Source: Candidatus Kaiserbacteria bacterium (lineage in GTDB: Bacteria; Patescibacteriota; Minisyncoccia; Phycocordibacterales; UBA2100). From it: a DNA stretch of 43,141 nucleotides. A program made the position numbers and the translations under genes. The stretch spans positions 1 through 43,141 of the forward strand of contig JACRFH010000063.1 of NCBI GenBank assembly GCA_016217975.1. The letters are read 5' to 3'. The notes beneath the pieces were generated by a model, which did not search any database, was not told where the DNA came from, and was given only the letters and a program-made list of their open reading frames with translations. Below are positions 3,606 to 11,099 of this stretch, piece by piece (position 1 is the stretch's first letter; each line of letters begins with the position of its first letter).

Positions 3606-3676
3606 CGGGGCGTCGTATACCGGTAGTACGCTTGCTTTGGGAGCAAGTAGACAGAGTTCGATTCTCTGCGCCCCGA
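3606..3676 (+). tRNA. tRNA-Pro(TGG), CCA not encoded
   Basis: CGGGGCG TC GTAT ACCGGTA GTAC G CTTGC TTTGGGA GCAAG TAGA CAGAG TTCGATT CTCTG CGCCCCG A. Confidence 0.92.
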
Positions 3677-3680
3677 CAAA
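3662..3680 (+). repeat. att-like direct repeat, left copy (tRNA-Pro 3' end)
   Basis: TTCTCTGCGCCCCGACAAA, identical to 7958-7976. Confidence 0.85.
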
Positions 3681-3750: not shown

Positions 3751-4101
3751 ATGAGAGACAATTGGCACGATATACAGAAAAAAGCCATTAATTTCAGGGA
3801 TATTCGGGATTGGAAACAGTTTCACAACCCAAAGGATATGGCACTTTCTCTCGTTCTGGAGGCGGCCGAAGTCATGGAGCATTTTCAATGGAAGTCGGAA
3901 AAAGAGATAAAAGCTTACGCCAAATCAAACAGAGATGAAATCGGCGATGAATTAGCGGACGTTGTCTACTGGATTGCAACAATGAGCCACGACCTAGGTA
4001 TTGATCTCCCAGAGGCGTTCAAAAAGAAAATGAAGAAGAACGATCAGAAATACCCAGTTACTAAATCCAAAGGCAAGCACACAAAGTACACCGATCTGTA
4101 A
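3751..4101 (+). CDS. MazG-like nucleotide pyrophosphohydrolase
   Basis: RDWKQFHNPKDMALSLVLEAAEVMEHFQW...EIGDELADVVYWIATMSHDLGIDL. Confidence 0.85.
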   Translation: MRDNWHDIQKKAINFRDIRDWKQFHNPKDMALSLVLEAAEVMEHFQWKSEKEIKAYAKSNRDEIGDELADVVYWIATMSHDLGIDLPEAFKKKMKKNDQKYPVTKSKGKHTKYTDL

Positions 4102-4104
4102 GTT

Positions 4105-6129
4105 ATGACTCAGATCCAGACTTTCCCGTTTGAGAAGGATAAATTCGATCAGCTAAAAGAATATCATTTTGGGTTGAATTGGCCCGTCGTCTATATTCAA
4201 GAGAACGGGAAGGAGATGTACATAGGCCAATCGACGAGTGTATATAGCCGCAGTAAGCAGCACTTTGATAACCCGGACAGAGTTCGCTTAAAAAGATTAC
4301 ATATCATTACGGATGAAGAATTTAATTTATCGTCCGCGTATGATTTTGAAGCGTATTTGATTCAATACATTGCTGCCGAAGGAATATATAAATTGCAAAA
4401 TGAAAATGGCGGACTCGTTAATCATAATTACTTCGATAGGGAGAAATATCTAGCCAAGCTTGAAACCGTTTGGCCTCTACTTCGTGAAAAGGCATTGGTT
4501 AAACAGGAACTCAAAGACATAAGAAACAGTGAGTTTTTCAAGTACTCACCCTATAAGGCATTGACACCGGAACAATTAATAGTTTCCGAGAATCTTGAGA
4601 AAAGTATAAGGAAAGGCAAACCTGTAACGCATGTCATAAATGGGTCGCCCGGAACGGGTAAATCTATTCTCGCGCTTTATCTATTGAAGCTCTTGAGAGA
4701 AACGAAACAAACCAAACATCTAAATGCAGCTCTCGTAGTGCCAATGCGTAGTCTGCGAGGCACTCTGCAAAGGGTTTTGAAGCGCGCCCCGGGCATGGGC
4801 GCTGGTATGGTTATCGGCCCGAGTGACGTGATAAAGCAAAAATACGACCTCCTCATTGTCGACGAAGCGCATAGACTACGTCGACGAGTCAATCTGACGA
4901 ACTTTCCATCCTTTGACGGTACTAATAAAGCTCTTGGGCTGAGTAAAGAATCGACACAGCTAGATTGGATTATGGCGTCTTCTGTGCAACAGATTTTCTT
5001 CTATGACCAGCGCCAGAATATTGTTCCTGGCGATGTTCGGCCAGCAGATTTTGAGGAGCTGAATGCCATTCAGCACGAATTAGTGAGTCAGATGCGTGTA
5101 GAAGGCGGCGATGATTATTTGAAATTTATTGACGATCTTCTTGAGCTTAATCGGGCAACTCCGCTGAAATCTGAGAAATACGAGTTCAAAATTTATGACG
5201 ATATTCGAGATATGGTTCGCGACATCAAGATGAAGGATGCAGAGCATAAGCTAGCTAGACTTGTGGCCGGATATGCATGGTCCTGGAATACAAAAGGAGG
5301 CAAAGATGGTCACGATATTGAAATCGACGGTCTAAAGCTCGTCTGGAACAGTACCAATTTAGACTGGGTAAATTCCAGGAATTCGATCAACGAAGTTGGA
5401 TGCATCTACACGGTGCAGGGATATGATCTAAATTATGCTGGGATCATCATCGGACCTGAACTTTCCTATAACGAATCGACAGGCAAGCTAGTTATAGACG
5501 AGAAAAAGTACAAAGACATCAACGGCAAGCGTTCCATTACTGAGCCCGGCGAGTTGAAGAGATACATAATCAACATTTATAAAACTCTTCTCACCCGTGG
5601 AATTAAGGGAACATATGTATACGTGGTTGATGAAAAACTGAGAAATCAATTCAAGCAATTGCTTGGCAATATGTCAGTTAAAAGTCCAATTGTGATATCA
5701 GAGAAACTGACACTTTCTCCGATCACGGTCGCGATGGTACAAATACCCCTCGTGGGCTCTGCGCCTTGCGGAAACCCATTGCTGGGTGAAGAAAATATCG
5801 AAGAGCACATTTTAGTCGAGAAGTCGAAAATAAAACATGGTTATCAATATTTCATTCTTCGGGCAGAAGGTGACTCAATGGATCTTGCGGGGATTAATGA
5901 TGGAGATATTGTCCTATGTCGTCAGCAAGAGAAGGCTGATACCGGAGATCGTGTAGTAGCGCTTTTAGGTGGTGAGAATGTGACAATTAAGAAATATGGT
6001 CCACGCGAAAATGGGATCCGCTTGCTCTTGCCCGTAAGTTCAAACAAAAGTCATATACCAATTACTCCAGGTGAGGGCGACAGTGTGCAGGGCATCGTGC
6101 AAGAAGTAATCGAAGAAAGAGATGAATAG
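4105..6129 (+). CDS. GIY-YIG nuclease - DUF2075-type helicase - LexA/UmuD-like S24 peptidase fusion
   Basis: N-terminal VVYIQENGKEMYIGQS...SRSKQHF; Walker A NGSPGTGKS; Walker B YDLLIVDEAHRLRR; GCIYTVQGYDLNYAGIIIGPEL; C-terminal PLVGSAPCGNPLLGEENIEE...ILRAEGDSMDLAGINDGDIVLC...GDRVVALLGGENVTIKKY. Confidence 0.85.
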   Translation: MTQIQTFPFEKDKFDQLKEYHFGLNWPVVYIQENGKEMYIGQSTSVYSRSKQHFDNPDRVRLKRLHIITDEEFNLSSAYDFEAYLIQYIAAEGIYKLQNENGGLVNHNYFDREKYLAKLETVWPLLREKALVKQELKDIRNSEFFKYSPYKALTPEQLIVSENLEKSIRKGKPVTHVINGSPGTGKSILALYLLKLLRETKQTKHLNAALVVPMRSLRGTLQRVLKRAPGMGAGMVIGPSDVIKQKYDLLIVDEAHRLRRRVNLTNFPSFDGTNKALGLSKESTQLDWIMASSVQQIFFYDQRQNIVPGDVRPADFEELNAIQHELVSQMRVEGGDDYLKFIDDLLELNRATPLKSEKYEFKIYDDIRDMVRDIKMKDAEHKLARLVAGYAWSWNTKGGKDGHDIEIDGLKLVWNSTNLDWVNSRNSINEVGCIYTVQGYDLNYAGIIIGPELSYNESTGKLVIDEKKYKDINGKRSITEPGELKRYIINIYKTLLTRGIKGTYVYVVDEKLRNQFKQLLGNMSVKSPIVISEKLTLSPITVAMVQIPLVGSAPCGNPLLGEENIEEHILVEKSKIKHGYQYFILRAEGDSMDLAGINDGDIVLCRQQEKADTGDRVVALLGGENVTIKKYGPRENGIRLLLPVSSNKSHIPITPGEGDSVQGIVQEVIEERDE

Positions 6130-6238: not shown

Positions 6239-6310
6239 GGCTATTTCGACACGTGAATAATTTACCTTGTTGGTAAAGAAAACTTGCGCTATAATCCCAT
6301 TCCATATACT

Positions 6311-6616
6311 ATGGAAATATCCTTCAAGAACGGTCGAGAGAAGGAATTTTATCAGAGTAAGTCCGCTCTTACGAGCGCATATGGTGATCGAATGGCGCGA
6401 AAGATTGCCCAGCGAATCAGCGAGCTGCAGGCAGCGGGAACTGCGCAGCAACTACCGAGCGGAGCACGATTCCACGAGCATAGCGGAAGGCGTGAAGGAC
6501 TCTTCTCCATCAATTTAGTACAGCCTATGCGGCTCATCGTAAGGCCAACGTGCTCGTATAAAGCTTGGGTCGAGATAACGAGCGTGGAGATTTACGAGAT
6601 AATGGACCCCCACTAG
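6311..6616 (+). CDS. HigB-like (RelE superfamily) toxin
   Basis: MEISFKNGREKEFYQSKSALTSAYGDRMARKIAQRISELQAA...GLFSINLVQPMRLIVRP; adjacent HigA-like gene. Confidence 0.8.
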   Translation: MEISFKNGREKEFYQSKSALTSAYGDRMARKIAQRISELQAAGTAQQLPSGARFHEHSGRREGLFSINLVQPMRLIVRPTCSYKAWVEITSVEIYEIMDPH

Positions 6617-6622
6617 AAATAT

Positions 6623-7693
6623 ATGGTCGAGACAAAACTTTCTTATAATCCGGATTTCGCTATACACCCTGGCGAGACACTTCGCGAGGAACTTGATCTC
6701 GCGAGCATCTCCCAAGTGGAACTCGTGCAACGAACGGGCCTTAGCGAGAAACACATAAGCCAAATCATAAACGGCGAGGCCTCTGTCACTCCAGATACAG
6801 CTATCAAACTTGAGCGTTCTTTGGGCATAGCTGCTGAATTTTGGGCGAATTTACAGAAAAATTACGATGTGACAGTAGCGAGAATAGAATCAGAGAAACG
6901 ACTCGCAAAGGAAATAGATGAATCTAGGAAATTTAAATGCTATGAAGAACTTGTCAGTGTTGGTTGCATAAAGCCCGCACAAGATTTGAAAGAAAAAGCA
7001 GAAAATCTCTTGAATTTCTTTGCCGTAGATTCTCTTGCTTATTTGCCGCAAACGGAAGCAATCGCTTTCCGCCAAACTCGTGGAAAATTCGATGAACGCT
7101 CTCTTGCTGCATGGTTACGGTGTGGAGAAATTGAAGCGTCGAGGCTTCAAGTCGGACCGTTTAATAAAATGCGGGTGCGAGAAATTATTCCAGAGATCAA
7201 GAAATTGACCTTACTTCCCGAGGGATTTGGTAGAAAATTACAAACGCTTTGTGCAACAGCTGGCATTGCAGTAGTGTTTAGTCCGTATTTTAAAAAGACA
7301 CGCGTAAGCGGGTCAACCAGATGGATTGGGGACAAGGCTGTAATTCAGATAAATACAAAAGGTGCGTATAGCGACATATTTTGGTTTACGTTTTTCCATG
7401 AGCTTGGACACGTGATGTTGCACGGTGTTAAAGAACGGTTCTTAGAATTTGAGGGGAAAACGAAAGATGAAAAAGAGCGAGAGGCAGATGAATTTGCAGC
7501 CAAGAATCTCATACCAGAATCGGAATACGGGACATATATTCGATCTGGTAAACTGGACCGCGTCACTGCAGAAAGATTCGCGAGATCAGTTGGTATCGAT
7601 GCAAGTATTGTCTTGGGTCGACTGGCATACGATGGGTTTGCTCAGTGGCGACAAATCGCACATGATAGACCACGCTTAATGATCCGACCTTAA
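6623..7693 (+). CDS. HigA-type HTH antitoxin fused to an ImmA/IrrE metallopeptidase
   Basis: HPGETLREELDLASISQVELVQRTGLSEKHISQIING and FTFFHELGHVMLHG (HExxH-like). Confidence 0.9.
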   Translation: MVETKLSYNPDFAIHPGETLREELDLASISQVELVQRTGLSEKHISQIINGEASVTPDTAIKLERSLGIAAEFWANLQKNYDVTVARIESEKRLAKEIDESRKFKCYEELVSVGCIKPAQDLKEKAENLLNFFAVDSLAYLPQTEAIAFRQTRGKFDERSLAAWLRCGEIEASRLQVGPFNKMRVREIIPEIKKLTLLPEGFGRKLQTLCATAGIAVVFSPYFKKTRVSGSTRWIGDKAVIQINTKGAYSDIFWFTFFHELGHVMLHGVKERFLEFEGKTKDEKEREADEFAAKNLIPESEYGTYIRSGKLDRVTAERFARSVGIDASIVLGRLAYDGFAQWRQIAHDRPRLMIRP

Positions 7694-10537: not shown

Positions 10538-10876
10538 TTATGAAAAAAGACCTTGAACCGTCTTTTGGACGGCTGTTTTGGTCGCAGTATCGAGAATGCC
10601 CACTTTTTTCTCGATGAGCGATGCATCAACGCATGCGATTTTTGCGGTCCTAACGATTGAAGGGATCGGAAGACCGGCTCTCTTTAGATCGGTAACGGCG
10701 ATGTCTCCCTGCCAACCTTTCAGTTTGGTGCTTGTGATCATGAGCACCCAGTATAGTTCAATGTTTCGGAATGGTCGCAGAGAGGCAATACAGACCGCTG
10801 GCCGTTTTTTCATCAGAAGATCGTCTGCATAGGGAAATGCAGTCACGACCACATCGAAGCGCTTAAAGCGCATCAT
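10538..10876 (-). CDS. PemK/MazF family toxin
   Basis: FKRFDVVVTAFPYADDLLMKKRPAVCIASL...ELYWVLMITS. Confidence 0.75.
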   Translation of the reverse strand: MMRFKRFDVVVTAFPYADDLLMKKRPAVCIASLRPFRNIELYWVLMITSTKLKGWQGDIAVTDLKRAGLPIPSIVRTAKIACVDASLIEKKVGILDTATKTAVQKTVQGLFS

Positions 10877-11099
10877 ACGCGTCGTTGGTCGGATCATTCC
10901 ATTCGTTGAATGTTGCAAACGGAATATCGAAAACGTCAGGACTTACCGAACTAGCACCGCGGTCAATAGGCACGATGCGCGCCAGAGGTTTTCCTGCGCG
11001 CGCGACGGTGAATCGCTCGCCGCGCAAAGACACGCGGTTCATGATCTCGCCGAAGCGCTTGCGCGCCTCCATCGCCGATACCGTTTTCGCTAGATTCAT
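10863..11099 (-). CDS. Phd/YefM-like antitoxin
   Basis: SAMEARKRFGEIMNRVSLRGERFTVARAGKPLARIVPI; overlaps the PemK-like gene. Confidence 0.8.
   Translation of the reverse strand: MNLAKTVSAMEARKRFGEIMNRVSLRGERFTVARAGKPLARIVPIDRGASSVSPDVFDIPFATFNEWNDPTNDAYDAL

Follow-up and report, generated by a model that had tools for sequence, protein, structure and literature searches.

LexA-type autoproteolysis is known mainly in repressors and in UmuD. Cleavage inactivates LexA, and in E. coli the C-terminal ...AA of LexA marks the fragment for ClpXP. LexA and the phage CI repressors place an N-terminal effector, a hinge and an S24 module in that order, with a Ser-Lys dyad and an (Ala/Cys)-Gly site 35–36 residues before the serine. 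UmuD, a subunit of Pol V, is an S24 protein that is not a repressor and is cleaved at Cys-Gly. Here we examined a 674-aa protein encoded in a 43,141-nucleotide stretch of Candidatus Kaiserbacteria (contig JACRFH010000063.1), referred to as the window. It shares fold, dyad, site spacing and domain order with LexA and CI, and the Cys-Gly site with UmuD. It differs from the repressors in lacking an HTH and in having a nuclease-helicase as the N-terminal partner, and its response to RecA is presumed. It differs from UmuD in that the S24 module is covalently fused to an enzyme, the N-terminal part is much longer and there is no UmuC-type polymerase.

The enzymatic part has relatives of its own. SLFN-g3 (DUF2075) helicases with GIY-YIG or PD-(D/E)XK-like N-termini, which PADLOC lists only as the candidates PDC-S14 and PDC-S41, have the same backbone and a MazG-like neighbour, whereas S24 is missing from about half of the loci examined. 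The Nhi and AbiO phage-defence helicases are distantly similar over the core of the helicase (PADLOC E 2.5e-10 and 1.7e-9), but the match spans residues 147–375 only, the nuclease is a different one and there is no S24. Human SLFN11, also a Schlafen-type superfamily-1 helicase, is the top Foldseek match of the whole model, with LexA lower in the list. The two proteins are only 12% identical, SLFN11 has no S24, and the SLFN/AlbA_2 RNase core domain has no Pfam match in the window protein.

Domain organization of the window protein

A sequence-only reading of this DNA had proposed a GIY-YIG nuclease, a DUF2075 helicase and an S24 module in one protein. The reading frame is free of internal stops and Pfam agrees with this composition, although the GIY-YIG match in the protein itself is weak (residues 32–86, 17.5 bits, cut-off 22.6). 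GIY-YIG is matched at E ≤ 1e-3 by 28/46 aligned relatives, and the presumed catalytic residues (Y30, Y39, G41, R49, E82 and N101/N106) do not vary among the five full-length fusions. The match to SLFN-g3_helicase, formerly DUF2075, covers profile positions 4–354 of 354, and by this match the helicase part is assigned to the Schlafen group 3 class. Walker A (NGSPGTGKS) begins at residue 179 and Walker B (LLIVDEAH) at residue 249. Numbering by script also reproduced the positions obtained earlier by counting codons, namely C555-G556, S591 and K629/K630. An AlphaFold model built from a 46-sequence alignment has a mean pLDDT of 85.5, and low confidence is confined to the linker and the surroundings of the predicted cleavage site (residues 552–564).

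Table 1. Features of the locus, in window coordinates.
Feature	Position	Strand	Evidence
MazG-like nucleotide pyrophosphohydrolase, 116 aa, upstream partner	3751..4101	+	PF12643, E 1.8e-18
Complete ORF, GIY-YIG + SLFN-g3 helicase + S24, 674 aa	4105..6129	+	ORF and Pfam
GIY-YIG-like nuclease region, residues about 27–107 (Y30, Y39-G41, R49, E82)	4183..4425	+	Sub-cut-off Pfam match and motif residues
SLFN-g3/DUF2075 superfamily-1 helicase, residues 176–509	4630..5631	+	PF09848, E 8.8e-67
Flexible linker, residues 524–545	5674..5739	+	pLDDT < 50 at 524–542, AlphaFold model
S24 (LexA/UmuD-type) autoprotease module, residues 546–670	5740..6114	+	PF00717, LexA structures (3k2z etc.)
Predicted scissile Cys555-Gly556	5767..5772	+	Column Ala-Gly/Cys-Gly in 35/36 distinct fusions
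Predicted nucleophile Ser591	5875..5877	+	Ser in 39/39 fusions
Predicted general-base Lys629	5989..5991	+	Lys in 39/39 fusions

An S24 module with a LexA-type dyad and a predicted cleavage site

Peptidase_S24 (PF00717) matches residues 548–661 with an E-value of 8.4e-20, and phmmer aligns the window protein with T. maritima LexA at 3.1e-12. In the AlphaFold model the C-terminus adopts an S24 fold with a TM-score of about 0.74–0.8 to LexA. Compared alone, this part matches LexA of T. maritima, E. coli and P. aeruginosa, the lambda repressor and UmuD. Together the phmmer and model results place the S24 match far beyond chance. Among the close structural matches are the LexA chains of the RecA-LexA complexes 8trg, 8gms and 8s7g. 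The mutations named in the PDB titles of LexA matches (S119, K156 and G85) are consistent with this LexA numbering of dyad and site.

The S24 modules of 39 fusions were aligned; 36 of them are distinct, as three genes occurred in two collections. The serine proposed earlier as nucleophile is invariant. The lysine had been left as K629 or K630, and the alignment decides for K629 because the K630 column is variable. The Ser-Lys spacing is 38 residues, compared with 37 in LexA (S119-K156), as close as had been claimed. The scissile column, which the same reading had likened to a cleavage site, is Ala-Gly or Cys-Gly in 38/39 fusions and Ser-Gly in one. Ala-Gly occurs in 19/36 distinct fusions, and cleavage there would mostly leave a C-terminal ...AA, as it would at Bacteroidota-type A-A-Gly sites. 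Patescibacterial sites would leave ...APC or ...VGC.

The S24 modules fall into two deeply separated groups with about 20% identity, so conservation of the dyad and site is not due to recent common descent alone. Their retention across such divergence is expected if self-cleavage is selected. In close pairs S24 is under purifying selection (L045/L067, dN 0.086 and dS 1.09; L047/L048, dN 0.048 and dS 0.55). These results support a genuine S24 module of the LexA/UmuD type whose Ser-Lys dyad is intact, with a predicted Cys-Gly site at the helicase/S24 boundary. Pfam and NCBIfam scans found no HTH in the protein, and its score against the NCBIfam LexA equivalog (72.9) is under the cut-off of 110.95. 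Lacking an HTH, the protein is a fusion to an effector rather than a repressor, in line with the earlier suggestion that this is no transcriptional switch.

Distribution of the fusion

A search for GIY-YIG, DUF2075 and S24 in one protein, the check proposed with the sequence-only reading, recovered the combination repeatedly. The 36 distinct helicase-S24 fusions come from Patescibacteria, Bacteroidota, Pseudomonadota, Thermodesulfobacteriota, Myxococcota and Planctomycetota. Bacteroidota carriers include Flavobacterium, Chryseobacterium, Pedobacter, Chitinophaga, Robiginitalea and Phocaeicola. In 199 genomes of the window's order, four full-length relatives (L004, L005, L006 and L008) are 48–59% identical to the window protein, and two GIY-YIG/helicase relatives (L009 and L011) have no S24. 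The same order holds another backbone, whose N-terminus is PD-(D/E)XK-like, a class assigned only by motif (ELKQW). This backbone occurs with S24 in L013 and L014 and without it in L015 and L016. Judged by sequence, the architecture recurs in several phyla and on two nuclease classes and is not a one-off.

Distribution within the phylum is patchy. Among 389 phylum-sampled genomes, two have the complete GIY-YIG/helicase/S24 gene and a third only a C-terminal piece of it (a 242-aa frame). All three belong to the window's order, and the two genomes of the same genus that were searched lack the fusion. Two scans of viral contigs found no relative of the fusion. In phage records S24 matches are mostly of the LexA/CI type, the GIY-YIG and helicase part is present on a single unannotated contig of a faecal phage, and no match covers 80% of the query. 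Plasmids carry GIY-YIG + DUF2075 homologues without S24; RefSeq and PLSDB label this backbone 'DUF2075 domain-containing protein'. A 909-aa S24 fusion suspected in G183 was rejected, as no such ORF was found.

S24 as an exchangeable cassette

In several pairs the similarity of the S24 module departs from that of the protein before it. L013 and L014 share 80% identity ahead of S24 but 46% inside it. Conversely, L013 is only 32% identical to the GIY-YIG protein L036 in the N-terminal part and 77% in S24, and L014 and L008 show 34% and 63%, respectively. In the S24 tree, L013 with its PD-(D/E)XK-like nuclease lies inside a clade of S24 modules from GIY-YIG fusions. The helicase tree, a quick tree in which S24 gain and loss are indistinguishable, shows at least 11 changes in the presence of S24 and one in nuclease class. 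L061, whose frame is truncated close to the end of its contig, was left out of the S24 count. Relatives without S24 end soon after the helicase, near the junction, and one of them (L011) is 75% identical to L008. The predicted cleavage product would thus resemble a naturally occurring form. The available flanks of these relatives contain no stand-alone S24 ORF. By these comparisons S24 is an exchangeable, often absent C-terminal add-on.

The helicases of L079 and L088 are 87% identical and their S24 modules only 62%. In some pairs the cassette thus diverges faster than the effector.

A MazG-like partner gene

Directly upstream lies a MazG-like gene that the sequence-only reading had not mentioned, its stop separated by 3 bp from the helicase ATG. 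A public-genome scan was carried out with one genome per species, and the best 80 loci were taken. In 66/80 a MazG-homologous ORF adjoins the helicase, usually overlapping its start or a few bases from it, and downstream in five loci. It accompanies both backbones, whether S24 is present or absent. The MazG linkage is the most constant feature of these loci, and the unit consists of at least two genes, MazG-like and nuclease-helicase. The 92 genes flanking S24-bearing loci included no recurrent partner except MazG and no consistent defence partner, a weak result, as only these flanks were scanned. Many Pfam matches in the flanks are ordinary genes, and PADLOC matches among the window neighbours are partial or to candidate models only.

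Several other genes lie nearby. Directly downstream (6284–7693) are a HigB-like toxin, below threshold, and an antitoxin-like protein with an HTH and an M78 metallopeptidase domain that matches PADLOC PD-Lambda-2_B at 1.6e-29. A PemK/MazF-like toxin gene (E 6e-12) is at 10538–10918 on the minus strand. A large serine recombinase at 119–1891 overlaps an opposite-strand tRNA-Gly(gcc) at 1656–1729, possibly the edge of an integrated element. A tRNA-Pro at 3606–3677, 73 bp upstream of the MazG start, is a possible insertion point of the module.

RecA and other S24 proteins

The window's genome encodes RecA. Neither a separate LexA nor any other S24 protein was detected in this genome, which is 90.6% complete. 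A second S24-like match was rejected as signal peptidase I.

Other genomes of the order encode LexA-like proteins (LexA_DNA_bind + S24) fused at the C-terminus to DNA methyltransferases (L022, L023, L026–L032, L115:458-2323 on the minus strand and L117:821-2686 on the plus strand), with N6_N4_Mtase in L027 and L030. They keep the serine, the lysine, usually an A-A-Gly site, and the HTH. By domain content they are another S24-effector fusion, one in which the HTH is retained.

Discussion

The order effector, linker and S24, the intact site and dyad, and a genome that encodes RecA and in which no other S24 protein was detected suggest a RecA-responsive self-cleaving enzyme. We propose that a MazG-coupled nuclease-helicase carries a LexA/UmuD-type S24 cassette and is switched on by RecA-triggered self-cleavage, and we give this reading a probability of about 0.45. 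The module would cut its own chain at C555-G556. The trigger would be the RecA-ssDNA filament, as it is for LexA, UmuD and phage repressors, a supposition drawn from the fold. S24 dimerises in known relatives, and here it may keep the intact enzyme restrained. Cleavage would then free a product of residues 1–555, similar to the relatives without S24, so that damaged or invading DNA turns the nuclease-helicase on. The process acted on could be defence against foreign DNA or the handling of damaged forks. We favour activation by release, given that relatives lacking S24 have the same partner gene.

The enzyme might instead serve chromosomal repair and the nucleotide pool and have no part in immunity. 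MazG would clean damaged nucleotides while the S24-controlled enzyme processes stalled forks, making it an SOS effector that acts without a transcriptional step. In its favour, the pyrophosphatases of the MazG family have a house-cleaning role, the whole model is structurally closest to SLFN11, a replication-stress factor, and ordinary genes are frequent in the flanks. We hold a repair role to be possible but less likely than not, since the patchy distribution described above, the plasmid homologues without S24 and the swapping of cassettes look like a mobile accessory trait.

Cleavage could also act in the opposite direction. The intact enzyme, dimerised through S24, would be active, and RecA filaments on the host chromosome would provoke self-cleavage that monomerises it, exposes a degron and removes it before it attacks repair intermediates. 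This is the logic of LexA and CI. GIY-YIG restriction enzymes act as dimers, and inactivation is a serious rival in view of how LexA works and of the A-A-Gly sites. We nevertheless consider it less likely than activation. Relatives without S24 are frequent and still have MazG as partner, yet they can neither be switched in this way nor dimerise through S24, and the Patescibacterial ends are less degron-like than ...AA.

Recruitment is a further alternative, in which S24 mainly brings the enzyme to RecA-coated ssDNA or dimerises it and cleavage only tunes its lifetime. The resemblance of the model to LexA in RecA complexes fits such a role, and exchangeable cassettes would suit targeting. Docking alone would not need full conservation of the serine, the lysine and a Gly-containing site, and we judge it improbable. 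Finally, a functionless S24 remnant or an assembly artefact, which decayed-looking copies might suggest (L010 of the window's order, split between frames; L007, with an in-frame TGA; and G535, with residues 429–669 only), is already contradicted, as far as sequences tell, by the recurrence of the fusion across phyla in many independently made assemblies, by the conserved dyad and site and by purifying selection on S24, and is given almost no weight.

The domains are individually known; what appears new is a LexA-type autoprotease on a nuclease-helicase effector. A literature search, with most subscription journals outside its reach, returned nothing on this architecture or on DUF2075 function. 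A BREX survey mentions only Schlafen RNases (PMC12839542). At its broadest, and tentatively, the finding may describe a widespread and previously undescribed class of MazG-coupled nuclease-helicases under exchangeable LexA-type cassettes, which RecA filaments on damaged or invading DNA would cause to cut and switch themselves on. Such a response would be SOS without transcription, and the protein may here be the only LexA-fold client of RecA.

The S24 fusion offers a practical way into the uncharacterised DUF2075/SLFN-g3 helicases and the MazG-like proteins that accompany them. A nuclease-helicase fusion conserved in several phyla would let DNA damage set the state of an enzyme directly via self-cleavage, and such damage, or an infection, may thereby act as a direct switch of these enzymes.
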